Origin: Massilia sp. YIM B02763
GTDB lineage: Bacteria > Pseudomonadota > Gammaproteobacteria > Burkholderiales > Burkholderiaceae_D
DNA: 64,000 nucleotides
Reading direction: 5' to 3'
NCBI RefSeq assembly: GCF_030412015.1
Contig: NZ_JASNRD010000002.1
Coordinates: 124,001 to 188,000, forward strand
Shown here: in pieces, positions 14,063 to 33,775 of the stretch
Position numbering within the stretch: position 1 is the first letter of the stretch
How the letters are laid out: each line of letters begins with the position of its first letter
Notes under the pieces: generated by a model
Database searches by the model: none
The model's input: only the letters and a program-made list of their open reading frames with translations
What the model was told of the DNA's origin: nothing
Program-made: the position numbers and the translations under genes

Positions 14063-14069
14063 CAGGTCC

Positions 14070-15965: not shown

Positions 15966-15991
15966 ATATAATATTCAAGTAAATAATATGT

Positions 15992-16774
15992 TTAAAACGC
16001 TAGCAGCGTAGATTGGTTTGCAGCTAATTGAGATTCCAACCGCTTGATGGATATATTGAGTTCGACGAGACGATTCAACTGCTTCTCTTTGCTGGCTTGG
16101 GCGCGCAAGGCAGACAGCTCCGTAAGCAGAGAAGAGCGCTGCTGCAGGAATTCACGCATCTGCCGGGTTTGCTCAGGCGAGGACGGCAACACGAAACGCC
16201 CGGCTGCCCCTGCTACAGAAAGGCCCAAGATGCAATTCACCCAGCCCTGATAGAGCGCAAATAGGTTCCTATTAGGCTGGGCTGACAAGCTTAGCGCACC
16301 TAAGAAACCCTGCACGCTGGCTGAAAATAGCGCTTCTGATGCAATGGGGAATGTGGTCAGCACCTCATCCACAACAAACTTGCCGACTTCATTTTGGTTG
16401 AAGCGTTTATGGGCAGTGGATACGCCGATACAAGTTTTGTCAGCATTGAGAAAAGAAGCCAGCAGTAATACAGGGTACGGGACTGCCCGGTGTATCAGTT
16501 CGAGCAGCCGTGCGGCCTTGGCGTTAGGGCGAAAGTCGACCGTAAGCACGGCGATTTCAAGGTACTCGCGTTCACTGTCCTGGAATACTGGCACGCCGAT
16601 ATTGGTAGGCTTTAGTGCTGCAACCCACATCAGCTCTTCGATACCGTCCTGAATCTGGCGCTTGTCGCTTGCGGTAGGTGCGCCCTGCTCTACAAATAGC
16701 TTCTTGGGAATGCGTTGGTCAACCTTGGCTTCGGTAGGCAGAGCCAGCGCATTGAGCACTGTAGTCAGACTCAT
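15992..16774 (-). CDS. DUF4391 protein of the restriction operon
   Basis: This 260-residue protein starts 'MSLTTVLNALALPTEAKVDQRIPKKLF' and contains 'IEELMWVAALKPTNIGV' and 'EYLEIAVLTVDFRP', features of the DUF4391 family found beside SNF2 helicases and type III methyltransferases. The C-terminus is helical, ending in a coiled-coil-like segment ('LNRLVELNISIKRLESQLAANQ'). A longer frame (from 16804) exists, but the ATG at 16774 overlaps the helicase stop in ATGA, a standard coupled start. The biochemical role is unknown; operon membership suggests an accessory subunit bridging helicase and methyltransferase. Confidence 0.8.
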   Translation of the reverse strand: MSLTTVLNALALPTEAKVDQRIPKKLFVEQGAPTASDKRQIQDGIEELMWVAALKPTNIGVPVFQDSEREYLEIAVLTVDFRPNAKAARLLELIHRAVPYPVLLLASFLNADKTCIGVSTAHKRFNQNEVGKFVVDEVLTTFPIASEALFSASVQGFLGALSLSAQPNRNLFALYQGWVNCILGLSVAGAAGRFVLPSSPEQTRQMREFLQQRSSLLTELSALRAQASKEKQLNRLVELNISIKRLESQLAANQSTLLAF

Positions 16775-19700
16775 AACGTCGCCCCAGGCACGACAACCAA
16801 CCAAGCGACCACTTCAAAGTCGCTACTGCCTGCGACCTCACCCTTCTGAGCATGTGTGCCGCCTGCCGTAAATAGACTGGCCACGGCTTTTTCTTCCTTC
16901 TTGCCGACAACCGAAGCGATGGCTGTAGCGAGCAGGTCTTGTGCATGCCTCATATCTCTGCCGTCGCGTGTGACCTTGTCAAACCGGGCACACGCCATAG
17001 CGTCGGGCATGTCACGCCCAAGGCAGAGCTTTTTCAAACGGTCGAGAATCTGCTTGGGTTGGGTGAATGGCAGTGACACCTCACCGTTATTTGCGATATG
17101 TACCAAATAGTGCGGGGCCAGCGGATATCCCGACTCAGCAGCGTTGGCTGCCTTCTCGCCCACGGCACGCAGGCAGAACACGATGCCCGGAGGAATCGAC
17201 GCGTCACCGAGGTCGGACGTGGTAGTGACAGCAAACGAACCCAGCGGCATCGCATCTAAGAGGCCAGGATGCTCTTTCAATTGGCTGGCCAGGTCGATAC
17301 GGAAGTCATTCAGAGTCAGGTCAGCAATAGAAATTCCGCTAGAAAGGTCTTCAAGGTCGATGACTGTATCCTGCAACTTCAGCAGTTGCTGGCGGCGGTA
17401 CTCCAAATCGTTCATCTGGTTACCCGACTGCTGCTCGATAAGGTTTTCCTCCCCCGTGGCCGAGATGTCGAGCAGGACCATCCTGCCGCTGACCCGCTGT
17501 TCGAGATTGATGTATTCCTCCAACTCCATGTTGGGCCAGAAATTGGCAAGCTGAATGCAGACGTTGGGCGAGCCAATTCGGTCAATACGCCCGAAGCGCT
17601 GGATGATGCGCACGGGGTTCCAGTGAATGTCGTAATTGATGAGGTAGTCGCAGTCTTGCAGATTCTGGCCTTCCGAAATGCAGTCGGTAGCAATCAACAA
17701 GTCGATGTCGCCCTCGTGAGCATACTCAGCGGGGCGCTCCTTCGAGCGCGGCGAGAACGCCGTCAGCAGGCTTGCAAGGTCGGTGCGTAGCTTGGGCTGG
17801 GTAGTCCTATTACTGCCCGTCCCCACAATCACCGCCGAGTGAATGTCCAGTTCAACCTTGGCCCACGGCGCAAGCTGCTGGTATAGGTACATCGCGGTGT
17901 CGGCGAACGCGGTAAAGATGATGACCTTCTTGTTGCCCACGTTGATTGGCTGAGTGGCTTTGTCCGCAATCAGCTTACGCAGCGCGACAAGCTTGGCATC
18001 TCGCTCTGCCGAGATTTGCTCTGCGGCTGACAACAGCGTAGCGAGACGGTTGCGGTCTTCTTGTAGGTCTTGCCTCCAGCGTACCCTGTCCACATCCTGC
18101 AATAGCACCTTGACCTTGCGGCCCACCAGCAAAGATTCGTAGATAGGGTCGTCCACCTCGACCTCATCGATGTCGAGTTCCTCGACGGAGTCATGGTGGG
18201 CGTCAATGCGGGCAAGTAGGGCGTCCACGCCTGCCAGCTGCCGCTTAAGCGTCAGCGCGAACGACATCACCGAGCTTTCCATGCGCTTGAGAAGATTAAC
18301 GCGAATCAACTGTACTAAGCTCTCTTCACGGTCAACTTGCCGGAAAAAGCTTTGGCCGCCACGAATGCGGGTGCTGTATTTGGCGTCGTAGTCAGCCATC
18401 TTGTTCGGCAACACATAGCGCAATGGGGCGTAAGGACTGAGGTTTAGCCTCCGAATTTCGTTGTTGATTTCTCGAATTGCCGGGAATTGACCTAGCAAAT
18501 CGACATCGGCCTTGATGTTGAGCGGCCTCAAACGGCTTGGGAAGTTACCGGTTTCAGCCGTGCCGTAGTACTTCTCGATGTGCTTGCGCGAACGGGCAAT
18601 AGTGAGCAAGTCAAGCAGCTTAAAATAGTCAAAGCCCAGCATGTCCATAAGGCGCGAGGGCCTACGTTCCATCTCCTCTAAGCGTAACCACCGATTGAAC
18701 TGAGATTGGGCTTGCCGGACCGTTGCTTCGATACTGGGAATGCCGTGGGCATCGAGCGCGCCGTCCGCTCCTTCGGTAAGAAAGGCAATCTGGTTCTTGA
18801 GGTCTGCGAGCCGGTTGTTGACCGGTGTAGCAGACAGCATGAGCACCCGCGTCTTGACGCCTTCGCGGATGATTTGCCGCATCAGGCGGTCGTAACGACT
18901 CTCTCTGCCCTGGTGAGTAATCTTGTTACGGAAGTTATGGGACTCGTCGATGACTACCAGGTCATAGTTACCCCAGTTTACGTGAGTGAGGTCGATGTCG
19001 CCCGACTGGCCGCCGTCCCGCGAGAGGTCAGTGTGATTCAACACATCGTAGTGAAGCCGGTCAGCCGCCAACACATTGCGCCGGTCGTTCGATTTGTAGA
19101 GGGTCCAATTGTCTCGGAGGCGCTTCGGGGCTAGCACTAGGACACGGTCATTGCGCAATTCGTAATATTTAATGATAGCCAATGCTTCGAGAGTCTTGCC
19201 GAGTCCCACGCTGTCCGCAATAATACAGCCGCCATGTCTTTCAAGCTTGTCTATGGCACCTACCACACCGTCCCGCTGGAACTTGTACAACTTTTGCCAG
19301 ACAGAGCTGTTCTTAATGCCAGTAGCCGACTTGATTATTTTCTCTTCATCAAGTTCATTGCCAAGGTCTTTGAAAAGGTGATATAGCGTCAGGTAATAGA
19401 TGAGCGAGGGCTGCCGATGAACGGACAACTCGCTGAGCCGCTTCAACAGTTCAGACTTGGCCGTGCTCGTGGCAGGTAAGTTAGACCACAGGCCGTCGAA
19501 CCACGCAGCTAGGAGTTTGCACTCCTCAGGATTCTCTGCTGACTGGACAAGGCTGAACTGCTCATTGGGAGTAAGACCAAGCCCGCTGGTGCTGAAAGAG
19601 CTAGTCCCCGTGATGACGCGCTGCGGAGCTCCGGATTCTGAACGGACCACTATCGCGGCTTGAGGGATGCCTCCCTTGGCCTGTCTGACGTCCGCCTTTT

Positions 19701-19977
19701 CCAATATCCAGTCACTACATTGCTTCGCGAGCCAACGCGTTTGCAAACGGTTGCGGAATGCTCTATCGGCCTCCGAGCCGAGCAATTCCCAGTGTTCAGG
19801 CACTGATGCAGGCAGGGCAACACGAACCTTCTTCGCCCCGGCCAACAGCTCTTGCAGCTCAGCGAATGCAAAAAGGGAGAAGGATGGGGACGCCAAATCG
19901 TACGCGGACTTCGTCCCCAGGAACTGCCGAAGCTCGTCAATGACCCTGTCATTGCCGCTGTTTTTTATGAGACGCAA
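16771..19977 (-). CDS. SNF2-family helicase with N-terminal PLD-like domain
   Basis: First gene of the four-gene restriction operon, 1068 residues. The N-terminal 200 residues resemble a phospholipase-D fold ('VRQAKGGI' and 'VITGTSSFSTSGL' with a following N-x-E in 'LTPNEQFS'), but the usual His of HxK is replaced (QAK), so this domain may bind without cutting. The helicase follows: Walker A 'DSVGLGKTLEA' (about 259), motif II 'VVIDESHNF' (about 344), motif III 'LMLSATPVNN', and motifs V-VI 'DCISEGQNLQDCD' and 'RIIQRFGRIDRIG'. Such SNF2 proteins act as DNA translocases in restriction-like defence systems. The ATGA overlap with DUF4391 indicates coupling. Confidence 0.88.
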   Translation of the reverse strand: MRLIKNSGNDRVIDELRQFLGTKSAYDLASPSFSLFAFAELQELLAGAKKVRVALPASVPEHWELLGSEADRAFRNRLQTRWLAKQCSDWILEKADVRQAKGGIPQAAIVVRSESGAPQRVITGTSSFSTSGLGLTPNEQFSLVQSAENPEECKLLAAWFDGLWSNLPATSTAKSELLKRLSELSVHRQPSLIYYLTLYHLFKDLGNELDEEKIIKSATGIKNSSVWQKLYKFQRDGVVGAIDKLERHGGCIIADSVGLGKTLEALAIIKYYELRNDRVLVLAPKRLRDNWTLYKSNDRRNVLAADRLHYDVLNHTDLSRDGGQSGDIDLTHVNWGNYDLVVIDESHNFRNKITHQGRESRYDRLMRQIIREGVKTRVLMLSATPVNNRLADLKNQIAFLTEGADGALDAHGIPSIEATVRQAQSQFNRWLRLEEMERRPSRLMDMLGFDYFKLLDLLTIARSRKHIEKYYGTAETGNFPSRLRPLNIKADVDLLGQFPAIREINNEIRRLNLSPYAPLRYVLPNKMADYDAKYSTRIRGGQSFFRQVDREESLVQLIRVNLLKRMESSVMSFALTLKRQLAGVDALLARIDAHHDSVEELDIDEVEVDDPIYESLLVGRKVKVLLQDVDRVRWRQDLQEDRNRLATLLSAAEQISAERDAKLVALRKLIADKATQPINVGNKKVIIFTAFADTAMYLYQQLAPWAKVELDIHSAVIVGTGSNRTTQPKLRTDLASLLTAFSPRSKERPAEYAHEGDIDLLIATDCISEGQNLQDCDYLINYDIHWNPVRIIQRFGRIDRIGSPNVCIQLANFWPNMELEEYINLEQRVSGRMVLLDISATGEENLIEQQSGNQMNDLEYRRQQLLKLQDTVIDLEDLSSGISIADLTLNDFRIDLASQLKEHPGLLDAMPLGSFAVTTTSDLGDASIPPGIVFCLRAVGEKAANAAESGYPLAPHYLVHIANNGEVSLPFTQPKQILDRLKKLCLGRDMPDAMACARFDKVTRDGRDMRHAQDLLATAIASVVGKKEEKAVASLFTAGGTHAQKGEVAGSSDFEVVAWLVVVPGATL

Positions 19978-20335
19978 GTTTTCCCCCTTCGTATCCCGAA
20001 ATCATAAGCGACAGAGCCCGCATCAACAGCTCTGTCCTTGCAAAAAAGCAACAGCCGATTTCAGAGAATCATACAGCACCATAGGGATGGACTCCTAGCT
20101 TACCAACGCCCATGGAGCCAGAATCCTGAAACTCTAAGTCACACATAATTTCGCACTTTTCGTCTCAATGCCACTGCTGCAATTTCGCTATTGTGTAGGT
20201 GAATGTACATACATCCGTAAACGACATTGAATATTCAACTTTCACCACTATGAGAGTAATGGCAAATATTACTTACAAAATTTAGCCTCTATTTTTTGAA
20301 AGAAATAAATTTGACGAAAAATAGAGACCTAGGCA
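19978..20335. other. intergenic stretch between the two defence operons
   Basis: No gene is supported. A decayed copy of the defence-block inverted repeat lies at 20240-20266 (TTTCACCACTAT ... AGTAATGGCAAA). The promoter of the restriction operon should lie just right of 19977; no strong -35/-10 pair is obvious to me. Confidence 0.5.
20240..20266. repeat. defence-block inverted repeat, decayed copy 3
   Basis: The left arm, TTTCACCACTAT, differs at one base from the other copies; the right arm has several changes. It lies between the Mokosh-like pair and the restriction operon. Confidence 0.6.
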
Positions 20336-21847
20336 TCAGTTATCTTTGCTAGCTAGCTTAGCGTCTGGCATGCCATTATATCCTTTTGCCAACAATTGCA
20401 AGCCGTCTTGATAAATACTCTCGATATCATCCGGCTCAGTCACCTGAAAGCCAAACTCATCGCGTGCTTTTTTGTTCGGGTCCCCCCTGAACGATAGCCA
20501 GTTAAAACTAGTTATCACTGCAAATTTCTCGTCGCACACGAGTAATTTTCGATGGGTATTACCCAGAAATACAAATTTAAAATTATCAAAACGTTTTTGA
20601 AGGGTCGTGAGCTCTTTCTCGGCTAACGAGGTAATCGCGGGCTTCTGCTTCGCCTTGTCGTTACCTCTGAGTCCGTCTTCTTCGGCAAGGCCATATCCAA
20701 TAGACACCTCCACCCCATTACGCAGCAATGCTTCAATTGATGAAATAAACATCCGGTCTACAACGTAATGTGTTATCCAAGGAGAAATAATCAACAAGCG
20801 GTCTTTGGAAGTCGTCAACGCTTTACGGAGAAGTCCTGGATGCTCGTGCATTCTTACACACCGCTGTGTCATTGCTCTTAGACGTTCAACGACAGGACTA
20901 CTCATAGAGGTGGTGGACGACTGTTCATTCTTTCCTAACGAAGCGACACCGCCTGCGAGCCGTGAGGACTCTTCATTAATGGATGTAGTAACTTCCCTTT
21001 CAATAGCTAACAATTCATCGAGTTTTGTCTGCTCACTTACCCCAGAAATCAAATCACCAATTTTAGGAAACTCTGCACGTGTTAGCGCATGGTTCGCTCC
21101 TGCTTGTTCGGGGCCGCCAAGTTCTCGGAAAGCATTTTCGTGCTCCAGAGAAAAACCCTCTTCCAAATAAAACGCTACTTGTACTTCCTCACTGGAAACT
21201 GACCGGTAAAAAAGCATAATACATGGGAGGAAATGCATTTCACGTCGCTCAATTCGTCGAGCGGCAAGTAGCTCACGACTTCCTTCATCTTGACGTGGAA
21301 GTCTTTGCAGGACTTTATCGACGTCTGCAAGCGGAATATCGGCAATTTCGGGACGTTTAGCACCGCACAAAGGAACCTCATAAAATCCTAAGCTTTTTAC
21401 GTCGCGTGGTTTAAACAATGATGACGTTGAGACGAAGCGAATTTTACGTTGATATGGGTCAAAGACGAATTTTACAACAGCTTCCTGGGGCACAACCTCT
21501 TTCATCGTTAATAAGGTTGAACGACCCTTTTCGGTCAGCGTTACTACGGCCTCGGCATTCTCAGTTCGCCGAGAATAGTTGATGCACTCATTCGTATTTA
21601 GACCCGCCAACACTCCATCTAGCACAACTCGCGGCAAGCCTAATAATGACGAGATGTCCGCAGGAGAGTACAGGCCAGCATTAATAGCCCCGAGGCAAGC
21701 CTCCTCAATTGGCCCAAGACTCTTTTTTTCTAATGTGAGCACCCTTGTCGTCAAGAGGTAATTTGGAATTGCAGCCTCCTTAAAGGCGACCAAAGAATAG
21801 CCAGGTCGCACATATGCAACCTCATCCAAAATCTTTTCAAGGTTCAC
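20336..21847 (-). CDS. mkoB: PLD-family nuclease, Mokosh type I component
   Basis: This 503-residue protein has a winged-helix-like region (about 55-120, 'GLYSPADISSLLGLPRVVLDGVLAGL') and a C-terminal phospholipase-D nuclease domain. 'RLLIISPWITHYVVD' (about 355) opens the domain and 'HRKLLVCDEKFAVITSFNW' (about 434) is the HxK(x4)D catalytic motif. Only one HKD is visible, so the active form may be a dimer. Its ATG overlaps the stop of the kinase-helicase gene (ATGA at 21844-21847). The pairing of a PLD nuclease with a kinase-SF1 helicase is the published arrangement of Mokosh type I. The gene symbol rests on that architecture. Confidence 0.8.
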   Translation of the reverse strand: MNLEKILDEVAYVRPGYSLVAFKEAAIPNYLLTTRVLTLEKKSLGPIEEACLGAINAGLYSPADISSLLGLPRVVLDGVLAGLNTNECINYSRRTENAEAVVTLTEKGRSTLLTMKEVVPQEAVVKFVFDPYQRKIRFVSTSSLFKPRDVKSLGFYEVPLCGAKRPEIADIPLADVDKVLQRLPRQDEGSRELLAARRIERREMHFLPCIMLFYRSVSSEEVQVAFYLEEGFSLEHENAFRELGGPEQAGANHALTRAEFPKIGDLISGVSEQTKLDELLAIEREVTTSINEESSRLAGGVASLGKNEQSSTTSMSSPVVERLRAMTQRCVRMHEHPGLLRKALTTSKDRLLIISPWITHYVVDRMFISSIEALLRNGVEVSIGYGLAEEDGLRGNDKAKQKPAITSLAEKELTTLQKRFDNFKFVFLGNTHRKLLVCDEKFAVITSFNWLSFRGDPNKKARDEFGFQVTEPDDIESIYQDGLQLLAKGYNGMPDAKLASKDN

Positions 21848-24800
21848 TGTTTAATCTCCTCCAGAGCACAATCCTGCGGATTCCCTTTTATATAATCAAT
21901 CACACGTTTTAATGGATTGGAACGCCCCTCAGCTTCCTGGCAAAATTGATGGTCCCCAACAATAATTAAGTACTCTTTACCACGAGACAACGCAACGTTG
22001 ATTCGTTCCATTTCGCGAAGGAATCCAAGCCCACGAACATCCGAACGAGTTACGGAGAAAATTAGAATATCTGCTTCTCTACCTTGGAAAGCATCAACCA
22101 CGTTCACATAGATATCAGAAAACGACTCCCACTCATGACGTTTGTTTTGAATAGCAGCGTGAAGTCGCTCTCGTTGTTCGCCGTAGCCGGTTAGCACGGC
22201 CACCGACAACGGTTTCTGCTTGGATTTGCCATGTTTGAGTTCAAAATCGATTCGCCCAAGTAAATCTGAAATGTATTTAATTTCGAAACCATTCCACTGG
22301 GATGTACCGACCGGCTTCGATGCTTTTCCATCACATCTACTTGTCGAGAACCACACTACCGGACGGGACAACGTTCTCGATAACAGCCCAAGTGGAGCTC
22401 GTTCCGCACTTTGCAGTTCCGAATCGTAAAAACATGCCGATATAAGGTCACCGATAGCGGGCACCATTCGGTGCTGGGTCGACAATGCCTTTTTCAACTC
22501 AGTAGGCAACCCATCCAACAAATGGTTGAATAGCGTCGCTTTCTGGTCTTGAGCGCTTAAGGAAAAGCGTTGCAGTAGCCCTGATGTCTGTAGTTCTGGG
22601 TCTTGGAAAGGAGATAGCTGTTTGTGGTCGCCGACCAAAATAGTCCGTCTTGCCCTTGCCATAGGCACCAACACTTCGGTGGGCGTTGCAATGGACGCCT
22701 CGTCGACGATACACAAGTCATAAGTAACGTCGTTACGTCCTGGCACTCCCATCACACCTAGGCAGGTACCAGCAATCACCTGAGACTGCGTCACTAACGC
22801 TGCTTTGAACTGCGGACTCCGTCCAAAACGAACTTCCCATTCCGAATGAACGGCGAGCATGCGACGGAGTTGTGTTACTTGCGTGGAGTCAGCAACATAA
22901 CTGTTAGCCCATGACCGTAGCTCGTCTGAGCTACACTCCGCGAGGTGCTCAATCGCTTCCTTGTCTGACTCATATTTTCGTAGTTCGCCAATCGAGTCCT
23001 TCAGGTCCTTATCGAGCGCATCGAGTTCCCGAATTAATTCCGATTGGAGTTCCTCAAGGTCAGCACGTGCCTCCGTTTCAAGAGTTGCTTTATCGACACG
23101 TAAAGTTTGTTCAATTCCGGCGATTTTAGATTCGACTTCATCCAGTCTCTCTCGAAGACCTGCGCGTTTTTCCAGAGCCATCGCCATGCGCGTACTGGTG
23201 AGGTCTACACCGCTTTGTTGCGCCCACGACTCAATAAACTCTTTTCCCTTCGCAAGTGCTGACTTGCGCATAACAGGCAATTTCCTGTCAATCAACAGCC
23301 CTTTGGTCTTTTCTGCAATTCGCTCATCGTTTTCGTGTCCGATTCGGAGCGCTCGTATTTCATCCTCGCTTTCCTTAAGAATTCTCTCGAGTGAGTTATC
23401 CAACGCAACATGCGTTTGAGATGTCAAAAGAATTCGAGCGTTCGGATTATTGCGAAGGGTCTGCAACACTATCTCAGTAATGAGCGTTGTTTTGCCTGCG
23501 CCTGGGGGCCCTTGCACGAGCATCAATGCTGGCTCTGACAGTGCGGTACGTACCGCATCACGTTTATCATCGTCCATAGCATCCTGAATAAAGTCCACAT
23601 CTTCAGGAAGCGGCACTGGAACTGTTGACGGGTCAACAATATAGTCACCGAGAATCGGGTTGACTGCGCGACCGAAGCGAACAGCATCCACAGCTGCTTT
23701 TTGTCGGTCAAGCGCTACGTCTGCCCTTGATGTATCAATCGTGAGTACACCTTGTTCAGGCAACATACCTAGTTCAATGCGATTACGCTGGTTTGGCTGA
23801 ACCAGGACCGAACTATCACTTACGGACACAACGGAGCCGGAAAATGTATCGTCACGACTAACTTCGACTTGAACGTCTTGGTCGCTGAGAAAATCAGCGT
23901 CTGCTGCTTGAGAAAGCGTAAATCGAATGTACCCTCCGGACGACTCTTGCGCGATGTAGCTCAGTTTACGCTTCCGTTGCCGTTCAAGTTCGGTCTTTGC
24001 ACTTAGTAAATCTAACCAAGTTTTATAGATAGCTTGGTGCCGTTGTTGAATTCGAATGGCCTTTTGGTCGGCGCCGAACTGAAGAAGTTCGTCTTGCAAG
24101 TTCGCGATATTTTCTTTGGATATAGAAGGCAGGACCCCCGAAAAACAAAACTCGTATTTTGATGGTGATGCATCGTCGCGGTTACGCTCTGCGTCCGACG
24201 ATGACTGCTCTAACGCCGAGACAAGTAAAAGCTTTTCGCCGGTTGGCGGAGCCATTATCCCAATGTACCCGTATCTACCTCCGAACAGGCGAATCGTCCG
24301 TCCGAGAGGCAAACTTCCATCAGGACCGGGACGAGGCTCCCCCGTTTCGTGAGCACAAGCCGCCGACGCTAAATCGCTTTCGACAAATTTAAAAAAATCC
24401 GGGTCACTTTTTAATGCAAGGTCATACTCAAAAATTTGTTTCACTTTATGGGTGAGACTGACGAGAATCTTTCCCTTTTTCTCGGTTACTAGAGCTGGGG
24501 ATAGTCTATCTAACTCTGCCAGCAGGACCGCTGCATTTACCTGCCGTTCCGCTGGATTATCAATCGATATTGCTCGGCGGAGCAGGCGCTTGAGTGGCTC
24601 GTCAATTTTTAATTGTTCAAGTGAACTCGCGAGCGCCTTGTGACTATCGACCTTATCGTCAGTTAGCGCCGTAACTGCTAATGCTACGAACCCAAAAACA
24701 TCTCGACTGTAACTATAACTACCATCATCGATTTCTGGAGGAGCATAAGGGAAGGACGCAAAATGTGCCAGCGTAACACCTGGCTCTAAGAAATTCCTTA

Positions 24801-25332
24801 TTTTCGAGATACCGAAGTCGCAAACTTTGATTATTCCGTCAGATGTGATTAACACATTTGAAGGCTTAATATCACGATGTGCAGTTCGATGTGAATGAGC
24901 AAATGCTAGTGCCTCAAGAATTTGACGGCCGATTTTCGAAAAGAAAACGTCCCAGTTTTCGTATTTACCTCTATTGAGAAGACTTTCCAAATCCTCCTGG
25001 ACCCACTCCATAGCGATATAGTGCTCTCCGCTATCAGAGTCGAAGCCCGAGTCAAATATCTGCACGATATTCGGATGCTTTAAATCAGATAGCGCTAGCG
25101 TTTCACGTCGAAATGATTCCTCAACGACGGGGTCAGTTCCACTTACAGTGCGAAAAACCTTAAGAGCAACATGGCGCTCTTCCTGCGTATCGAACGCTCG
25201 GAAAACTGACGCTATCCCCCCGGACCGAGGAGGTCCAGAGACTAAGTAACGGCCATCGGCGATTAACCTTTTGCTTTTTTCTTGTTTTTGTTTTATATCG
25301 CTCAATTTGAGCTGTTCTCTCTTAGTATTCAA
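21844..25332 (-). CDS. mkoA: Ser/Thr kinase-SF1 helicase fusion, Mokosh type I component
   Basis: 1162 residues. Residues about 25-290 are a Hanks-type kinase: glycine-rich loop 'GPPRSGGIASVFRAFD', 'HVALKVF' (Lys about 56), catalytic 'AHRDIKPSN' (about 150), 'VCDFGISK' and 'APPEID'. Residues about 590-1150 are a COG1112-type superfamily 1 helicase: Walker A 'VQGPPGAGKTT' (about 605), 'CIVDEASIATPTE' (about 876), 'GDHKQLSPF', 'STQHRMVP', 'VDAFQGREADI' and 'NVALSRGKEYLIIVGD'. A coiled coil separates helicase motifs I and II (about 690-800). Kinase and helicase residues are all present. Together with the overlapping PLD gene it matches Mokosh type I; the target, probably phage nucleic acid, is not evident from sequence. 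Confidence 0.87.
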   Translation of the reverse strand: MNTKREQLKLSDIKQKQEKSKRLIADGRYLVSGPPRSGGIASVFRAFDTQEERHVALKVFRTVSGTDPVVEESFRRETLALSDLKHPNIVQIFDSGFDSDSGEHYIAMEWVQEDLESLLNRGKYENWDVFFSKIGRQILEALAFAHSHRTAHRDIKPSNVLITSDGIIKVCDFGISKIRNFLEPGVTLAHFASFPYAPPEIDDGSYSYSRDVFGFVALAVTALTDDKVDSHKALASSLEQLKIDEPLKRLLRRAISIDNPAERQVNAAVLLAELDRLSPALVTEKKGKILVSLTHKVKQIFEYDLALKSDPDFFKFVESDLASAACAHETGEPRPGPDGSLPLGRTIRLFGGRYGYIGIMAPPTGEKLLLVSALEQSSSDAERNRDDASPSKYEFCFSGVLPSISKENIANLQDELLQFGADQKAIRIQQRHQAIYKTWLDLLSAKTELERQRKRKLSYIAQESSGGYIRFTLSQAADADFLSDQDVQVEVSRDDTFSGSVVSVSDSSVLVQPNQRNRIELGMLPEQGVLTIDTSRADVALDRQKAAVDAVRFGRAVNPILGDYIVDPSTVPVPLPEDVDFIQDAMDDDKRDAVRTALSEPALMLVQGPPGAGKTTLITEIVLQTLRNNPNARILLTSQTHVALDNSLERILKESEDEIRALRIGHENDERIAEKTKGLLIDRKLPVMRKSALAKGKEFIESWAQQSGVDLTSTRMAMALEKRAGLRERLDEVESKIAGIEQTLRVDKATLETEARADLEELQSELIRELDALDKDLKDSIGELRKYESDKEAIEHLAECSSDELRSWANSYVADSTQVTQLRRMLAVHSEWEVRFGRSPQFKAALVTQSQVIAGTCLGVMGVPGRNDVTYDLCIVDEASIATPTEVLVPMARARRTILVGDHKQLSPFQDPELQTSGLLQRFSLSAQDQKATLFNHLLDGLPTELKKALSTQHRMVPAIGDLISACFYDSELQSAERAPLGLLSRTLSRPVVWFSTSRCDGKASKPVGTSQWNGFEIKYISDLLGRIDFELKHGKSKQKPLSVAVLTGYGEQRERLHAAIQNKRHEWESFSDIYVNVVDAFQGREADILIFSVTRSDVRGLGFLREMERINVALSRGKEYLIIVGDHQFCQEAEGRSNPLKRVIDYIKGNPQDCALEEIKQ

Positions 25333-26955: not shown

Positions 26956-28812
26956 TTACTTTGCGAGCCACTGTTCGAATGGCGCGGGAAGAACGATGTC
27001 GGAGAAGTTCAACGTTTCCAGGTAGGGCAAAGCGTGCGCTGGCTGATACCCTTTGCCGTAGTTACTCTCGCTGCCCTCCTCGTTTACTACCTCGCCTTGG
27101 CGCACAATCTTTCGCCCGGAAAGGTGTTGTGACATGCCTGGCGGCCACGGTGCTCGAGCTTGTGCATCCCGAATCCGGTCTTCGAACTGGTGCCTAAAGC
27201 TGTGGTTGCCATAACCATTCGCGAAACCCAACTCGTCCTTCATAAAGCGCAGCATTGCCTGCTCGAACGCTCGTCCCCACTTCGGGGATTTCCCGCCAGG
27301 TTCAGGGAGAGACGATGGGAATAACGGCCCGTCAGCATCACCCAACTGCCGTTTACGCTGCTCTAGATAGTATAGGAGCCCAAGTTCAATCAATTTAGGA
27401 TGTACGGGAATATCTCGAAGAACATTCTCATTCTTCAAGCTGCGCGGCTCGAGACCGTCTACGAGCTTCTTGGGCGACTTGAGCTCTGCTTCTTTCGTCT
27501 TGACAAAGCCATCAGCGCCCTCGTCCTCTTCGTCAAAACTAATCCGGAACCTGAATGACCAAACGCCATCAATCTGAGTTACCTCGCTGACCATAAGTTG
27601 CAATGGCTCCCTGACACGTGAACCGTGGAACAGTTGGATAAGTGGTCCAAAGTAGCGAACGCCGAGGTCTTCACGTAGCTTTCCACGCCAATTATTGGAA
27701 GCGGGGTTGTACCACTCGGAAGCCAGCAGCTTATTGATGTGAGTCGTCGTCAGCGGATATCGAGGCTTCTTGCGCCTCCGCCGTTCCTCTTTCGATAACT
27801 TAGGCATTGACTCGAGATTCGATGCAGGGTTCTCCACAGTCATCAAATTTTTAGTCCGAGCCAAGCCGAAAATTTCACGGAGGTAGTAAGGTATTTTTGA
27901 CGTTGCGTACGTCTGGGACCACTTCCGCCCCTTGTCCGACAAGTGAAATTTTATGAAATTGTAGACGTCAGCTGAGGTAACCTCATCCATATAGACGTCG
28001 CCCCGGAAGTCACGGAATAAGGCCCAAGTATTAAGAACGGTACTCAGATGATGAGCGCCGACGGACTCTTGCCTGTCGTTACGGTAGAGCTCATCCATCA
28101 CGGAAAGGCGTTCTCCAGAACGCACCTTGACAACCAGCGGCTCCGGAGAATCACCGCGATTACGGCTCGAAATGAACGCGTGCATCTGGGTCTCAGCTTG
28201 TGCGAAGCGGCGCACGAGCTGGACGAATAGCGGGTCATCAGTCGAGACCGCGATATCTTGAATGTCACACCAATCCAAGACTAACTCGACTACTTGAGCA
28301 TAGTCCCCAGACTGGCGCCCCCGGCTAATGACGCTGCGCATTTGCGCATCCGAACTGGCACAGAACTGTTCCAGTTCTGCGAACTGCTCATCATCAAGGC
28401 CATGTTGATATCGGTCCTCATCGTCAGTGTGCATCCACGACTGAATCCTAGCCGCCACAATCTCATCGATAATGTCAGGCGTAAGAATCACTGGCTTTGC
28501 AGACTCTTCTGCATCTACGGTCTCTTGGGCGCTCCACGAAATCGGCGTGACGCGACCCTTGTTTTGCAGGTGTTTTTTGCGCAGCGCTGCCCACTTGGTC
28601 TTGGTAGCGTGAATTAACGGAGTGCCGCGTAAATACGCGTCCTCCGCGTTCGCGGTAAGCATCGACTGACGAACACGATGCTCTTCCTTAGGGGTAATTT
28701 TTCGGAGGTCGCCCGGCATGACCATGCGGACGTAGATGATACCGTTTTCACGACGCTCAAAGTATCTCTGAAGCACTTCTTTTTCCCCAGTTTTGTCACA
28801 CTGTTTTGTCAC
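26956..28812 (-). CDS. tyrosine recombinase / island integrase
   Basis: This 618-residue protein has a C-terminal catalytic domain: Arg in 'LFHGSRVREPLQL' (about 396), 'GNHSFRHQFEDRI' (HxxR, about 537) and the nucleophile Tyr in 'ESNYGKGYQPAH' (about 584). The central region about 240-330 ('SADVYNFIKFHLSDKGRKWSQTYATSKI') is the SAM-like core-binding domain, and the extended N-terminus is typical of large island integrases. Its start lies 64 bases from the 3' end of the split tRNA-Ser gene, the standard layout in which an integrase sits beside its tRNA attachment site. It would integrate and excise the island at that site. Confidence 0.92.
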   Translation of the reverse strand: MTKQCDKTGEKEVLQRYFERRENGIIYVRMVMPGDLRKITPKEEHRVRQSMLTANAEDAYLRGTPLIHATKTKWAALRKKHLQNKGRVTPISWSAQETVDAEESAKPVILTPDIIDEIVAARIQSWMHTDDEDRYQHGLDDEQFAELEQFCASSDAQMRSVISRGRQSGDYAQVVELVLDWCDIQDIAVSTDDPLFVQLVRRFAQAETQMHAFISSRNRGDSPEPLVVKVRSGERLSVMDELYRNDRQESVGAHHLSTVLNTWALFRDFRGDVYMDEVTSADVYNFIKFHLSDKGRKWSQTYATSKIPYYLREIFGLARTKNLMTVENPASNLESMPKLSKEERRRRKKPRYPLTTTHINKLLASEWYNPASNNWRGKLREDLGVRYFGPLIQLFHGSRVREPLQLMVSEVTQIDGVWSFRFRISFDEEDEGADGFVKTKEAELKSPKKLVDGLEPRSLKNENVLRDIPVHPKLIELGLLYYLEQRKRQLGDADGPLFPSSLPEPGGKSPKWGRAFEQAMLRFMKDELGFANGYGNHSFRHQFEDRIRDAQARAPWPPGMSQHLSGRKIVRQGEVVNEEGSESNYGKGYQPAHALPYLETLNFSDIVLPAPFEQWLAK

Positions 28813-28876: not shown

Positions 28877-28927
28877 TGGCGGAAGCGGTGAGATTCGAAC
28901 TCACGAACGGGTTCCCCCGTCGGCAGT
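28877..28927 (-). tRNA. 3' half of split tRNA-Ser(UGA); probable island attachment site
   Basis: Read on the minus strand this is the second exon of the tRNA: ACTGC (3' arm of the anticodon stem), a long class II variable arm, the T arm GTGAG-TTCGAAT-CTCAC, acceptor CGCTTCC and an encoded CCA. It pairs perfectly with the 5' half at 31624-31662: GGAAGCG with CGCTTCC, and GCAGT with ACTGC. The joined tRNA is 90 nt with CCA. Islands with tyrosine recombinases insert at tRNA 3' ends and restore them, so this segment is probably also the att core. The matching att copy would lie left of the window. Confidence 0.93.
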
Positions 28928-28976
28928 GTAGAGTCGCCTACCAAGTCCACGGATGGATAATCAATAGGCTCTCCCC

Positions 28977-29010
28977 GAACCGGACGTGCAACTTTCAAAG
29001 CATCCGGCTC
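28977..29010 (-). ncRNA. group II intron domain V
   Basis: A 34-nt hairpin on the minus strand: GAGCCGGATG, a GAAA tetraloop region (TTTGAAAG), then GCACGTCCGGTTC. Length, bulge and tetraloop agree with the catalytic domain V of bacterial group II introns. It lies 27 bases after the maturase stop and 49 bases before the intron end. Confidence 0.92.
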
Positions 29011-29036
29011 TCCAGTATGCCTCCGTATTGGCCGTA

Positions 29037-30926
29037 TCACCGCGTTGCGAGATGAGCATCGGCGAAATCCATCAAGGAAATCCCGTCATACCGCCCATTG
29101 TGAATCTTGGAATGGCACGATGAGCATACCGGAAGTTGTTTCCGGTTTATCTTGCCCATGAGTTTGTCGAACCCCTCATTGGTGTTCTTCCCATTCCTAC
29201 GCACGTGTCGCACGTGATGCATCGCGACTCCATCGCTTTCACCGCATATACAGCAATGCTTGTCAATCTTAGTTCTGGTAAGCGCGCTGGTTTGCGCCTT
29301 GATGACTTCCAAAGCGTCCGGCCTACTTCCAGTTAGAAAGTTCTTAGTATTAGCTTTCCATTCCAACGGGTACCTCAGGTTTGTGGTTTTCACCTTACCT
29401 GACGAACTCGTTATAGACACGGTCAGCATATATCCATGCTTCCTAAAGATCTCCCGCATCGAGGTGCGGTGCCGATTGGCTAACGTTTTAGCGGCACTGA
29501 ACTGAAGAATGTACGCGATTCTCCTCAACTTCGCGCGATTAGTCACGAAGCTATAGTAGTTCAGGTATCCCAACAGCAGTGAGTTATATGACTCGATGAT
29601 GCGAATGTCGTCTTCCACAACAAGCGAAACTTTCGCAATCGGATCACCGTTAACCTTGCAGAACCCTTTTTGGAACAAACGGCTGATAATACGGTCTATT
29701 GGTGCAAACATCGACACCTGACCTGACGTAGTCCGTTTCGTAACCGCGACACGGCCCCCATCCCCCTCTTTTCTGGAGAATGTTAGGACCCTAGGGTGTT
29801 TTGATCCCACTTTGATTCTAGTACCGAGGAAAAAGGCCTCTTCGGTCTTGGAATGCCTGATGTGAGTCTTCTCTCGGCTGAGCGTCAGTTTCAGGTCCGA
29901 GGCGAGAAATTCTTCTATCTCGTCCCGTAACTTTTCTGCCAACTGTCTTGTGCCGTTCAGACCAACTAACCAGTCATCGGCGTACCGCACATACCTAATC
30001 CGAATCGGCAATGTAGCTGCATCCCACACCGGAAGGGTCGTCGCAATGACCTTAAGTTTACGGATCTCATCTGCAATCCGCTCCCTCTCATCTTGCTTAC
30101 CTTCCCCCTCAGCCTTAACCAGAGCCCTGCGCAGTCGACGCAATGCATTGTTGTTGTCTGCGTATTCCCTTGCATACTTAGGGCTTGAAGCCTTTTCGTA
30201 CTTAAGACGCAGATTGTCAACGAACACATCCAACTGATGCATGTAGATATTGGCGAGGATGGGTGAGATGATACTGCCTTGTGGGGTGCCCACAATGCTG
30301 TTGACTGGTACCTTAAATTCGAGGTATCCAGCTGTCAGCGCTTTCCAGATCAGATTAATGAAGCGTTCATCGGAGATCCTGAGCCTAAGAATCTCGACTA
30401 GCCTATGATGGTCAATGTTGTCGAAACAACCCTTGATGTCACCTTCTACGAACCACGCAGCCCCTTGCCAATCCTGGCTAATGTGTTGGAGTGCGGTGTG
30501 GGTTCCCATCCCCTGACGAAATCCAAAGCTACGATCGCTGAATGAGCTTCCGTATGGACTATCGTAGATACTTTCCAGTATGAGCCGGATTGCTTCTTGA
30601 ACGATTTTGTCCCGAGGAGATGCCACGCCAAGATCGCGTGTTCCTCCGTTGGCTTTAGGAATTGGGACCTTTCGGGCCCTAGCGAATTGGAACGATTCGT
30701 CCTTGAGGCTGCTGATGATCTTCTCAACAACTTCCATTGAGAATCCATCTAACGTCTCTTTATCCGCGCCAGGGGTCATGTTACCTGGGCTGCTCTTAAT
30801 CCTCTCATATGCTAACTTGTACAAGTTAGGCTTGTACAACATACGATATAGATCTCGATTGACCCAGTTGGGGTTGCCATTGACCTTCCGGAGTGCCTCC
30901 AGACGCGATAGGGCGTTGTCTTCCAT
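29037..30926 (-). CDS. ltrA: group II intron reverse transcriptase/maturase with HNH endonuclease
   Basis: 629 residues from the ATG at 30926 (MEDNALSRLEALRKVNG); the open frame continues upstream to 31043, but the extra residues are not typical of the family. Reverse transcriptase blocks include 'ADKETLDGFS', 'RKVPIPKANGGTRDLGVAS', 'GDIKGCFDNIDH' and the catalytic 'RYVRYADDWLVG' (about residue 318). A maturase (X) domain follows, and the C-terminus is an HNH endonuclease with 'CCICGESDGVAMHHVRHVRR' and 'PVCSSCHSKIH'. It would help the intron RNA fold, splice and retrohome by target-primed reverse transcription. No disruption is seen. The symbol is the general family name. Confidence 0.93.
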   Translation of the reverse strand: MEDNALSRLEALRKVNGNPNWVNRDLYRMLYKPNLYKLAYERIKSSPGNMTPGADKETLDGFSMEVVEKIISSLKDESFQFARARKVPIPKANGGTRDLGVASPRDKIVQEAIRLILESIYDSPYGSSFSDRSFGFRQGMGTHTALQHISQDWQGAAWFVEGDIKGCFDNIDHHRLVEILRLRISDERFINLIWKALTAGYLEFKVPVNSIVGTPQGSIISPILANIYMHQLDVFVDNLRLKYEKASSPKYAREYADNNNALRRLRRALVKAEGEGKQDERERIADEIRKLKVIATTLPVWDAATLPIRIRYVRYADDWLVGLNGTRQLAEKLRDEIEEFLASDLKLTLSREKTHIRHSKTEEAFFLGTRIKVGSKHPRVLTFSRKEGDGGRVAVTKRTTSGQVSMFAPIDRIISRLFQKGFCKVNGDPIAKVSLVVEDDIRIIESYNSLLLGYLNYYSFVTNRAKLRRIAYILQFSAAKTLANRHRTSMREIFRKHGYMLTVSITSSSGKVKTTNLRYPLEWKANTKNFLTGSRPDALEVIKAQTSALTRTKIDKHCCICGESDGVAMHHVRHVRRNGKNTNEGFDKLMGKINRKQLPVCSSCHSKIHNGRYDGISLMDFADAHLATR

Positions 30927-31052
30927 CTCGGAAGACCCAGCTTTGTCTAAAGGCCTACATACCTGAGTCCCTTCCCGTTCAACAGGCATTACCCTGTTCG
31001 TATCGAGATTGCCTACGGTCAAAATGCTATGCATTATGCACACACTAGACTG

Positions 31053-31140
31053 TGGCGGAGGAGGTGGGATTCGAACCCACGAACAGTTTCCCGTTTCTGG
31101 TTTTCAAGACCAGCGCATTCGGCCACTCTGCCACTCCTCC
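31053..31140 (-). tRNA. complete tRNA-Ser(UGA) carried inside the group II intron
   Basis: 88 nt including CCA on the minus strand. Acceptor GGAGGAG/CTCCTCC; anticodon stem CTGGT/ACCAG around loop CTTGAAA (anticodon TGA); class II variable arm; T arm GTGGG-TTCGAAT-CCCAC. All stems pair. It is clearly different from the split host tRNA (GGAAGCG acceptor, GCAGT anticodon stem), so it is not a recent copy of it. It lies just after the domain III-like sequence and 127 bases before the maturase start. No separate promoter is obvious upstream, so it may be cut from the same transcript. Confidence 0.96.
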
Positions 31141-31342
31141 AACTCGGACGGTACTACGAACTCTCCGTCGCCATTCTCGCCTCCCGGCTTGAATCGTGGG
31201 TAGGTATTGTCCCCACTTCCTAGGGATTACTCCCCTTAGGCGATCCCCCTGTTAACGACAATACGTTGCTTGAGGTTAGGTGTCCCACACATCCTTTGTA
31301 ACGCCATGCCGGCGCGCACTCTGCCCGGAACTCTGCCATCTG

Positions 31343-31350
31343 CTTGAAAA
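31343..31350 (-). other. candidate EBS1 of the intron
   Basis: On the minus strand TTTTCAAG; its last seven bases pair perfectly with the CTTGAAA (31630-31624) that ends the 5' exon. This is the exon-binding sequence expected in domain I and explains targeting of the anticodon loop. Confidence 0.75.
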
Positions 31351-31399
31351 CCTCAGATGACACAGGCAAAAGAGGGTGTCATATGCTTTCCCTCCAGGT

Positions 31400-31404
31400 G
31401 CAGT
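31400..31404 (-). other. possible EBS2 of the intron
   Basis: ACTGC on the minus strand pairs with GCAGT directly upstream of IBS1 in the 5' exon (31635-31631). It lies on the 5' side of EBS1, as expected. It is short, so a chance match is possible. Confidence 0.45.
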
Positions 31405-31623
31405 GATCCCGTGCTTCGGATTAGGATTCTGACAATCAGCCCTCACCATACTCAAGTTAGCTGACCAACTCGGCGGAGGGTCGCATCTTCCTCCCGTCGG
31501 CCTTTTAACACCATGCTGCGGTCCCCTTGACCTTTCGATCTCAGGTAAGGTGCTGCTTTATCCACATTAGTTCAGTGGAACCAGCCGTTGCTGGCTACGT
31601 ACTACCGCCCTCTCGGGGCGCAC

Positions 31624-31662
31624 TTTCAAGACTGCTGCCTTCAACCACTCGGCCACGCTTCC
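31624..31662 (-). tRNA. serT: 5' half of split tRNA-Ser(UGA)
   Basis: 39 nt on the minus strand: acceptor GGAAGCG, D arm, the 5' arm GCAGT of the anticodon stem and the whole loop CTTGAAA. It resembles the proteobacterial serT gene (GGAAG.GTGGCCGAG start), so it is the native housekeeping tRNA. The 3' half lies 2.7 kb away at 28877-28927. Function requires intron splicing. Confidence 0.93.
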
Positions 31663-31674
31663 TTGGGGAACCGC

Positions 31675-31680
31675 ATTATA
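31675..31680 (-). promoter_or_regulatory. -10 box of the split tRNA-Ser gene
   Basis: TATAAT on the minus strand, 12 bases before the tRNA 5' end. No good -35 is seen at 17 bases. It shows that the split gene still has its own promoter, which would read into the intron, its cargo tRNA and the maturase. Confidence 0.65.
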
Positions 31681-31729
31681 CATAAATCATTGCCTGCCGG
31701 GCAGCCGAACGCGCATGGCTGAGCAACGA

Positions 31730-33775
31730 TCAGGCCACCAGCAGCCAGTTTTCCCGCAGCGCCGCTTCGAACTCGCACGCCGGCAGCGGCTTCCCATACA
31801 GGTACCCCTGCACCTCGTCGCACCCCGCCTCGCGCAGGAATTCGATCTGGTCGACGGTCTCCACGCCCTCCGCGATGACGCGGTGCCCCAGCCGCCGCCC
31901 CATGCTGATGATGGTGCTGGCGATCGCGCAGTCGCTCGAGTCGCGCGGGATGCCGGTGGTGAAGGAGCGGTCGATCTTCAGGGTGTCGATCGGGAAGCGC
32001 TTCAGGTACGAGAGGCTCGAATAGCCGGTGCCGAAGTCGTCCAGCGACAGCGCCACGCCCAGGCCGTTCACGCAGTCCATGATGTCGATCACCTGCTCGA
32101 TGTCGTGCATCAGCGTGCTTTCCGTGATCTCCAGTTCCAGCCAGTACGGCGGCAGGCGGTAGCGGCGCAGCGTGCTGGCCACGCGGTCCGGCAGCGACGA
32201 GGTGAATTCGCGCGCGGAGACGTTCACGGCCAGGCGGAACGGCGGCAGACCGGCCTGCTGCCAGATGGAGGCCTGGGCGCAGGCCTGTTCCAGCACCCAC
32301 TCCCCTACCTGCACGATCAGGCCCGTGCTTTCGGCCAGGGGGATGAATTCGCTGGGCGGGACCATGCCGCGGGTCGGGTGCTTCCAGCGCACCAGCGCTT
32401 CGGCGCCGACCAGGCGGCCGCTCGCGATCTCGAATTTCGGCTGGTAGTGCAGTACCAGCTCGCCGTGGCCCAGCGCGTGGCGCAGGCCGGATTCGATCTT
32501 CATGCGCTGCTCCATCCCCTGGTTCATGTCCAGGCGGTAGAAGGCCACGCTCTTGTCCGGGTTCTGGGCGTTTTCCTTGGCGCGCTCCATCGCGATGTCG
32601 GCCATGCGCAGCAGCGTCTCCGCATCCTGCCCGTCCTGCGGGTAGACGGAGATGCCGATGCTGGCGCCCACGCGCAGGTCGTGGCCTTCGATGCGGAATG
32701 GCGCTTCGAGCGCGGCCTGCAGTTTCTGGGCGACGGTGGTCGCTTCGAAGTGCTGGCGGACGTCGAACAGGCCGATGGCGAATTCGTCGGCGGCCAGGTG
32801 CGCCACCACGTCCTCGTCGCGCAGCGCGTTGCGGAAGCGCTGCGCGGCCTGGCGCAGCAGTTCGTCGCCGATGCGGCGGCCCAGCGTGCCGTTGATCAGT
32901 CTAAAACGGTTGATGTCGACGTACAGCACGCAGGCCGTCGTCTCGTTGCGCTGGGCTACCGTGAGGGACTGGTCAACCAGGCGGCCGAACAGGCGCCGGT
33001 TCGGCAGGCCGGTCAGCTCCTGGTAGTAGGCCAGGTGGTGCAGGCGCTCCTCGGCGAGCTTGCGTTCCGTGATGTCCGTCAGGTAGGCGATCAGGCCGAT
33101 CGGGTGGTCTTCGAGGTCGTTCAGCGGCGACAGCGACAGGCTGGCCCAGAAGACCTCTCCGGACTTCTTTCGGCGCCGCACCTCCATCATGCGGCCGCCC
33201 TCTTCCGGGAAGGCGTCGAGCGGGGTCGGGTCTTCGTCCGCGTAGAGGAACAGGATGTTGCGGCCGATGGCTTCCAGCGCCGTGTAGCCGAACAGCTGCT
33301 CGGCGCCCTTGTTCCAGCTGGTGATGTAGCCCATGCGGTCCATGGTCAGCACCGACTCGTGGATCTGGTCCAGGATCTGCGACTGGTGCGCGAGCTGCGC
33401 CTCCATGTGCGCGTAGGCGTGCGTCGTGCGCTGGGCCAGGCCGTGCATCTGCAGCAGCGTGCCGGTCAGCGCCGCCAGGCCTTCGAGCTGGCGCCAGTCG
33501 TCCAGCGTGTAGGCGCGGCCCGTTACCTCGTAGCGGCCCACGCATCTGCCGTCCACCTGGACGTCCTTCTCCAGGCGGCCTTCGCGCGACGCCGGTGCGC
33601 AGGAAGCGCCCGCCCCGCACAGGACGAAGGTGCCTTGCGGGCTGGCCAGCAGGCAGGCGGCGATGCGGCCCAGTTCCGCGTGCAGCGCGTCGCCGCGCAG
33701 TTTGAGGACGGCGTCGCAGACGGCGGTGCTGCTGCCGGCAAAATCGAATGGCGCGGCAGCAGGCAGCTTAGACAT
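31730..33775 (-). CDS. PAS-GGDEF-EAL cyclic-di-GMP protein with degenerate GGDEF
   Basis: 681 residues. A PAS domain (about 135-255, 'ILDQIHESVLTMDRMGYITSWNKGAEQLFGY') precedes a GGDEF domain whose signature is 'AADEF' (about 330), so cyclase activity is probably lost. The EAL domain (about 430-675) keeps 'GAEALVRW', 'ELEITESTLM', '[10 protein letters not shown]', 'KIDRSF' and 'AEGVET', so phosphodiesterase activity is likely. There is no membrane segment, so it is cytoplasmic. Its start overlaps the end of the upstream HDOD gene by 8 bases; the two are probably co-transcribed. Confidence 0.9.
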   Translation of the reverse strand: MSKLPAAAPFDFAGSSTAVCDAVLKLRGDALHAELGRIAACLLASPQGTFVLCGAGASCAPASREGRLEKDVQVDGRCVGRYEVTGRAYTLDDWRQLEGLAALTGTLLQMHGLAQRTTHAYAHMEAQLAHQSQILDQIHESVLTMDRMGYITSWNKGAEQLFGYTALEAIGRNILFLYADEDPTPLDAFPEEGGRMMEVRRRKKSGEVFWASLSLSPLNDLEDHPIGLIAYLTDITERKLAEERLHHLAYYQELTGLPNRRLFGRLVDQSLTVAQRNETTACVLYVDINRFRLINGTLGRRIGDELLRQAAQRFRNALRDEDVVAHLAADEFAIGLFDVRQHFEATTVAQKLQAALEAPFRIEGHDLRVGASIGISVYPQDGQDAETLLRMADIAMERAKENAQNPDKSVAFYRLDMNQGMEQRMKIESGLRHALGHGELVLHYQPKFEIASGRLVGAEALVRWKHPTRGMVPPSEFIPLAESTGLIVQVGEWVLEQACAQASIWQQAGLPPFRLAVNVSAREFTSSLPDRVASTLRRYRLPPYWLELEITESTLMHDIEQVIDIMDCVNGLGVALSLDDFGTGYSSLSYLKRFPIDTLKIDRSFTTGIPRDSSDCAIASTIISMGRRLGHRVIAEGVETVDQIEFLREAGCDEVQGYLYGKPLPACEFEAALRENWLLVA

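Follow-up and report, generated by a model that had tools for sequence, protein, structure and literature searches.

A group II intron in a Massilia tRNA-Ser(UGA) gene carries a second tRNA-Ser(UGA) that likely replaces the interrupted one

Introduction

Self-splicing introns are known in transfer RNA (tRNA) genes. Bacterial examples include group I introns, found in cyanobacterial tRNA-Leu and tRNA-fMet and in the tRNA-Ile of Azoarcus (PMC3984707, PMC3073962). Plastid tRNA genes harbour group II introns, such as that of trnK with matK, which are described as having lost mobility while still splicing (PMC4424553). The present work concerns a group II intron located in a bacterial tRNA gene, the tRNA-Ser(UGA) gene of Massilia sp. 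YIM B02763, within an analysed stretch of 64,000 nucleotides (nt) referred to below as the window (assembly GCF_030412015.1, contig NZ_JASNRD010000002.1, positions 124,001 to 188,000). This intron carries a second, complete tRNA with the same anticodon, called here the passenger.

Two other types of mobile element are relevant to such an arrangement. Integrases insert at the 3' ends of tRNA genes and restore the tRNA by a short repeat. Break-and-rescue selfish elements, including gene drives, inactivate a gene that is needed and supply a functional version of it. Among the open-access literature results listed, a scope that mostly leaves aside subscription papers and preprints, none describes a bacterial tRNA gene split by a group II intron, a group II intron with a tRNA as cargo, or any intron that brings a replacement for the gene it splits. 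On sequence comparison, we favour, with a probability of about 0.8, the reading that the intron occupies the sole tRNA-Ser(UGA) gene found in the genome and that the passenger, lying in predicted domain IV, likely replaces the interrupted tRNA.

The interrupted gene and its intron

The two halves of the split gene lie on the minus strand. The 5' exon (31624..31662), read from 31662 to 31624 with the 3' terminal letters ..GCAGTCTTGAAA, ends in ..CTTGAAA at loop nt 38, and the 3' exon (28877..28927; ACTGCC..CCGCCA) encodes the terminal CCA. When 31662-31624 and 28927-28877 are joined, ARAGORN recognizes a 90-nt tRNA-Ser(UGA) fold; the coordinates that the initial annotation of this DNA had proposed for the halves are exact. 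The intervening group II intron is 2696 nt long (28928..31623, minus strand; GTGCGCC...CTCTAC), and its domains V and VI (28928..29012, minus strand) match the Rfam family Intron_gpII (60.1 bits, gathering threshold 40). No group I intron family appears among the Rfam matches inside it. The insertion point is 38|39, nt 38 being the last of the loop and nt 39 the first of the stem. This agrees with the initial annotation insofar as it put the intron between the loop and the 3' stem; its description of a split anticodon loop has to be narrowed, as the intron enters where the loop meets the stem and not within the loop itself.

Of 61 genomes of the same genus, 46 have an intact gene that equals the joined product at 90/90 positions, and 58 have a full-length match of at least 96% (the exceptions are G014, G024 and G006). 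The site is therefore real and empty in relatives. The host exons are undecayed, and their identity with the intact gene of relatives implies that the insertion is recent or well tolerated. A TATAAT sequence (31675..31680, minus strand), read by eye 12 nt upstream of the split tRNA, is likely to be the -10 promoter box of the host tRNA gene; a strict promoter scan of 30900-31760 scored no promoter, either for the host gene or for the passenger.

The intron-encoded protein corresponds to an open reading frame (ORF) listed at 29037..31043 (minus strand), with a likely start at the ATG at 30926 and a YADD motif. It comprises reverse transcriptase and maturase domains and a putative HNH-like endonuclease domain. 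PF00078 and PF01348 are above their cut-offs, NCBIfam group_II_RT_mat reaches 242.8 bits, below its 300-bit cut-off, and the HNH family PF21368 reaches 21.8 bits for a cut-off of 23, with Cys/His residues conserved in the protein alignment (A1). The protein aligns nearly end to end with LtrA (PDB 5g2x, E 1.6e-98). In group IIA introns, delta is adjacent to exon-binding site 1 (EBS1) and pairs with exon nt +1; in all 11 introns tested, the nucleotide next to EBS1 pairs in this way, as is typical of IIA (LtrA-like) introns. From its predicted structure and its protein, the window intron is thus a mobile-type, LtrA-like group II intron.

The passenger tRNA

The passenger (31053..31140, minus strand) is an 88-nt tRNA with an encoded CCA, which ARAGORN types as tRNA-Ser(tga) and which matches the Rfam tRNA family from 31140 to 31056 (62.9 bits, gathering threshold 29). 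It is placed between a domain III-like motif, as read from alignment A6, and the ORF, and structure prediction forms its cloverleaf within the intron context. Its identity with the split gene is 77.8%. The complete, divergent tRNA-Ser(UGA) that had been seen ahead of the maturase in the initial annotation is thereby established. It has counterparts in related introns, presented in the next section; Rfam tRNA scores of the 13 passengers range from 54.7 to 75.4 bits (gathering threshold 29), and all the passenger sequences read encode CCA. When four Ser passengers are compared, 11 of 27 pairs show changes on both sides that compensate each other; for four CAU passengers the figure is 13 of 21. 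The passenger therefore passes both tRNA models and covaries with its counterparts, and it looks like a working tRNA on these sequence features.

The draft genome (5.9 Mb) contains 82 tRNA matches, among which ARAGORN typed Ser tRNAs with the anticodons GCT, GGA and TGA. No tRNA-Ser(UGA) gene besides the passenger and the split gene, and hence no second intact native serT, is found among these 82 matches. The draft may miss ribosomal RNA operons, given that neither Ala-TGC nor Ile-GAT is among the typed tRNAs, and a hidden second copy of Ser(UGA) is unlikely. In the Roseomonas, Rhizobium and Marivita assemblies that harbour related introns, an exact (and not exhaustive) Ser(UGA) pattern occurs once each, in the passenger; likewise, the sole Leu(UAA) match of Pseudomonas 10-1B to an exact, non-exhaustive pattern is the passenger.

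Related introns in other tRNA genes

The maturase search reveals a 51% identical protein on another contig of the same genome (G000:C4). The intron concerned, L061, is 2711 nt long and interrupts a tRNA(CAU) just behind CTCATAA; it contains a complete tRNA(CAU) and adjoins a gene read as rpoD-like. The genome has other CAU genes, which can be read as three of elongator-Met type and two of initiator type, and the split and passenger genes are its only GGGCC-type, Ile2-like ones. In another genome, G032, the same CAU intron occupies the corresponding site. Identity between the two genomes is 97.6% for the intron and 89.3% for 1.2 kb of the adjoining rpoD-like gene, which suggests transfer of the intron.

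Relatives exist in other proteobacteria. Ser(UGA) introns with a Ser(UGA) passenger occur in Roseomonas and in metagenome-assembled genomes of Rhizobium and Marivita, and related introns split the tRNA(CAU) of Pseudomonas fragi and Marinobacter maroccanus. Leu(UAA) introns with a matching passenger are found in Pseudomonas sp. 10-1B and on a plasmid of Pseudomonas sp. FeN3W, and a Leu(UAG) intron with a Leu(UAG) passenger on a plasmid of Pseudomonas silesiensis (L183). All introns of this LtrA-like clade that are in tRNA genes and have a readable site are inserted at 38|39, on the border of loop and stem. A further intron, L063, whose protein belongs to another group II lineage, splits a tRNA-Gly(CCC) and carries a tRNA-Gly(CCC); its site is two nt further, for the boundaries chosen.

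Among intact passengers with a readable target, the passenger anticodon is that of the target in 11/11 introns and for five isoacceptors, which is beyond chance: Ser-UGA in four (the window intron, L083, L085 and L086), CAU in three (L061, L062 and L087), Leu-UAA in two (L089 and L182), Leu-UAG in L183 and Gly-CCC in L063. Together with the lack of another Ser(UGA) gene, these matched anticodons support the proposal of the initial annotation that the intron carries what would be a replacement tRNA. As to whether the insertion is always in serT, a question put in the initial annotation, the sites also include CAU, Leu(UAA), Leu(UAG) and Gly(CCC) tRNA genes.

Three further cases are partial. The passenger of L084 (Marinobacter) is decayed, having lost its T arm and kept the CTCATAA loop. 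That of L088 (Cupriavidus lacunae) is intact, while the 5' intron end and exon are lost and the contig stops in the ORF; the idea that it is a passenger-only survivor was dropped since a second GGGCC-type CAU tRNA (L245) exists in this species. On a Microvirga plasmid (L184), a CAU passenger and the 3' tRNA half are present, and the 5' half is lost beside a recombinase-like gene.

The guide and its target

The guide of the window intron is the EBS1 TTTCAAG (31343..31349, minus strand; intron nt 275-281), which forms seven Watson-Crick pairs with the target anticodon loop; delta, the nucleotide just before it (31350, minus strand), pairs with exon nt +1. Each of the 11 introns tested has, with its first letter at intron nt 275-299, a heptamer complementary to the whole anticodon loop of the intron's own target, through seven Watson-Crick pairs in eight introns, six in L061 and L062, and six plus one G-U in L183. 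The own loop is the best one by Watson-Crick count in 9/11 introns. If G-U pairs are counted, L085 offers an additional site to which the Leu-UAG loop can pair. No convincing EBS2 was found in the introns examined, a long contiguous match being present in L087 only. Across the four loops represented in one clade, a different guide thus goes with a different target loop and a different passenger anticodon; as judged from these sequences, the passenger appears to have changed along with the retargeting of the guide.

Such matched evolution bears on the improbable alternative that the intron splices well and that the passenger is a neutral relic, which mattered at the time of invasion or never and is being lost. 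The 90/90 identity of the host exons to the gene of 46/61 relatives, the intact delta and EBS1 pairings and the decayed passenger of the Marinobacter intron L084, whose split gene is intact, all fit a relic. However, passengers are intact by ARAGORN in 11 of the 12 introns with a readable target, L084 being the exception; moreover, they covary among introns that have diverged, and their match to the target survives retargeting.

Related introns outside tRNA genes

The tree of maturases and the scan for T arms included 36 of 80 relatives and 17 others, that is 52 rows after L082 (232 aa) was dropped. Behind the last match, the scan covered 420 nt. The L108 locus stops at its ORF; L064 was scanned behind its first ORF piece, and its 3' end was read by eye. 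In the tree, the 13 tRNA-associated rows group with L075, L181 and L099 (a long branch) in a 16-row clade with 100/100 support. ARAGORN found no passenger in the 39 unlabelled rows of this set. The T-arm scan is clean in 38 of them; the remaining row is the inner intron of L063, located inside the Gly-CCC intron, which picks up the tRNA arms of its host intron. Two of these rows without a passenger are informative because they belong to the clade: L075, which is in a tnpB-like gene, and L181, which is in no visible tRNA. The initial annotation had taken a usual lack of the tRNA in related introns at other sites as a result that would refute its reading. Such introns do lack it (L075, L181, L064 and others), but those examined are outside tRNA genes and thus support a link between site and cargo. 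All 12 tRNA-sited rows have a passenger (one decayed) against 0/39 of the others (Fisher test, p = 6e-12, to be taken as a guide only, as rows share ancestry).

The sample behind these counts was the best 80 of 160 relatives in the genome-contig scan, all submitted to ARAGORN, and the top four of the 554 plasmid records with a relative; the 5050 maturase homologues lacking genomic context were excluded from the site count. The family is rare or patchy: at the class level it was found in 1/369 genomes at E<=1e-90, the window's own, and at the family level in 4/392 at E<=1e-40. In viral contigs, the pattern of a loop followed by GTGCGCC occurs in at least 181 stretches, with a related maturase downstream in 0/181. 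Among relatives of the Gly-CCC intron protein, a tRNA was found in 0 of 5 viral loci and in 0 of 3 plasmid records among 3034. In the 30 loci of the maturase search, ARAGORN reported tRNAs in L031 and L032, where they are the passengers, in L042, where a doubtful tRNA-Cys overlaps the match, and in L054 and L059.

Origin of the passenger

In the nine pairs measured, passenger and split gene are 67-87% identical and the passenger is therefore no recent copy of the split gene. That of the window is 83% identical to tRNA-Ser genes of roseophages, against 78% to its own host gene. The passenger precedes the ORF in most introns and follows it in L085, L086, L183 and L184; it was thus gained or moved more than once.

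This variable position, which suggests repeated capture or movement, could also be expected if passengers were captured by accident and without function, as might happen when the reverse transcriptase switches templates to a tRNA close by, since reverse transcriptases can copy tRNAs. Such an origin is nevertheless very unlikely: chance fails to give 11/11 matched anticodons over five isoacceptors, the identities of 67-87% are not those of fresh copies, and 0/39 other rows have a passenger.

Codon usage offers another possible role, the supply of a rare tRNA for the intron's own maturase, which can be regarded as extremely unlikely. Rare codons are more frequent in maturase ORFs than in host ORFs: in the maturase of the window, TCA represents 10/46 Ser codons, versus 1/89 in four host ORFs of the window (in which ATA accounts for 0/86 Ile and TTA for 1/222 Leu codons). 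However, the seven maturases counted use several rare codons, whereas each intron carries only the tRNA of the gene that it breaks; L182, which carries Leu(UAA), uses TTA for 1 of its 52 Leu codons, yet it contains 7 TCA and 8 ATA codons. The codon counts of these seven maturases led to the rejection of this role. The rarity of the decoded codons in the host lowers the cost of a poor supply and may explain the choice of these tRNA genes as targets.

Proposed mechanism and its weaknesses

In the favoured reading, EBS1 would read the anticodon loop of the target and delta would pair with nt +1, leading to insertion into the gene of one isoacceptor. The host tRNA promoter would then transcribe exon, intron and passenger as one long RNA, which could have two fates. 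Splicing would restore the host tRNA; alternatively, the passenger would be released from domain IV through cleavage by ribonuclease P (RNase P) and processing at the 3' end. Natural trans-splicing group II introns are likewise broken in domain IV. As either fate would supply the isoacceptor, the cost of sitting in a needed gene would be lowered, and the intron could persist and spread. Splicing, charging and rescue by the passenger are all inferred here from sequence.

The passenger might also act mainly as a processing switch, an RNase P cut in domain IV separating the two halves of the ribozyme and thereby tuning splicing and mobility. Its location between the domain III-like motif and domain V, whether before or after the ORF, and the formation of the cloverleaf in context would suit such a switch. 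Yet any tRNA would serve as a cut site, so that the match of anticodons would be left unexplained, and this role is very unlikely.

Returning to replacement by the passenger, several observations weigh against it or limit its reach. The passenger keeps the 7-nt loop read by the guide in 10/10 intact cases, and the +1 pairing in 7/10; it is consequently not shielded from the guide by recoding. The notion of a recoded copy hidden from the guide was rejected on this ground, and with it the analogy, drawn in the initial annotation, with homing elements that bring a recoded version of their target. Guide specificity is imperfect: the guides of L061 and L062 tie with another loop, at a different place, and with G-U pairs the guides of L089 and L182, which are directed at Leu-UAA, can bind the Ser loop as well. 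In L084, where the passenger lacks its T arm, a search for further full-length genes resembling the split one found none, which suggests from sequence that splicing alone can suffice and that the passenger is dispensable there. The acceptor stem of the L184 passenger is unlike that of Ile2. Absences deduced from exact patterns are weak, as the CAU pattern shows no elongator-Met gene in Marinobacter and P. fragi, and other Gly-CCC genes may be present in G033. Furthermore, the rows of the clade are related, so that counts are not independent, and the codons concerned are rare in the host, so that the cost of insertion may be modest.

A broader proposal seems reasonably probable: that there exist retargetable, anticodon-reading group II introns, the first with an antidote, which enter tRNA genes present in a single copy and provide the isoacceptor that matches, each transcript yielding a usable tRNA by either splicing or cutting, and that they evolved at least twice, in the LtrA-like clade and in the Gly-CCC lineage.

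Other features of the locus and of related loci

Several side observations concern the split gene and its surroundings. In G014 (L224, G014:C12:743500-747500), only the 5' 41 nt of a tRNA-Ser(UGA) are present, followed 17 nt later by a complete divergent tRNA-Ser(UGA), a replaced gene and perhaps the fossil of a similar invasion. Directly downstream of the split tRNA of the window is an ORF (26956-28812) putatively read as integrase-like, whose sole Pfam match, DUF6538, is sub-threshold. A 32-nt near-copy of the 3' end of the split tRNA lies about 33 kb away (G000:C12:119532-119563), and the same tRNA-Ser seems to be also the attachment site of an island. The presumed island (11045-25332) harbours defence-type genes identified by PADLOC, namely a type III restriction-modification system, an MkoA/MkoB-like pair and a Snf2-type helicase. 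The window also includes a gene for the bacterial small signal recognition particle RNA (54294-54392, 74 bits).

Others concern related introns and maturases. L063 (1-5400) and L184/L185, from two different bacteria, are twintrons in which one group II intron is lodged in the domain V hairpin of another, which suggests a lineage targeting domain V. L245 of Cupriavidus lacunae is a lone GGGCC-type tRNA(CAU) that resembles passengers, with no related maturase in its 3-kb locus. L054 and L059 are distant group II reverse transcriptase fragments at contig ends, with tRNA-His genes more than 340 nt away; they are possibly introns beside tRNA operons. Some close maturase homologues, for example P0007 and P0015, carry a precomputed match to PF01824, which we take to be the N-terminal domain of MatK, the family of the plastid maturase found in the tRNA-Lys intron.

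Comparison with known systems

If the proposed reading is true, these introns are natural 'break and replace' selfish elements. They would provide a testable natural case of an insertion tolerated thanks to its cargo, of a guide RNA that reads anticodon loops and of the matched evolution of guide, target and cargo. They would bear on how introns settle in essential genes and would offer a possible route for the replacement of host tRNA genes.

Ll.LtrB-type mobile group II introns with LtrA-like proteins resemble the window intron in their maturase, domains V and VI, GTGCG start, and EBS1 and delta pairings; unlike them, the window intron targets the anticodon loop of a tRNA whose gene is likely needed, and its cargo is a matching tRNA. 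Group I tRNA introns are also self-splicing introns near the anticodon of a tRNA gene, but they differ in ribozyme and mobility, and the accessible text of the papers cited above mentions no inner second tRNA. The trnK/matK system of plastids shares a group II intron and its maturase in an essential tRNA gene, whereas the accessible text of the paper cited for it mentions no replacement tRNA.

Like the integrases that insert at tRNA 3' ends, the intron uses a tRNA gene as its site and tRNA function is probably kept; however, integrases rebuild the end of the same gene, while the intron carries a whole separate tRNA. Break-and-rescue elements have a similar logic. The passenger differs from their cargo in that it is not recoded against the guide (10/10 loops kept) and is not immune to its own element. 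The passenger is matched in anticodon and structurally sound in its predicted fold, and it may be a working copy; the intron would follow the same logic as a natural, RNA-based element whose likely antidote is a tRNA.

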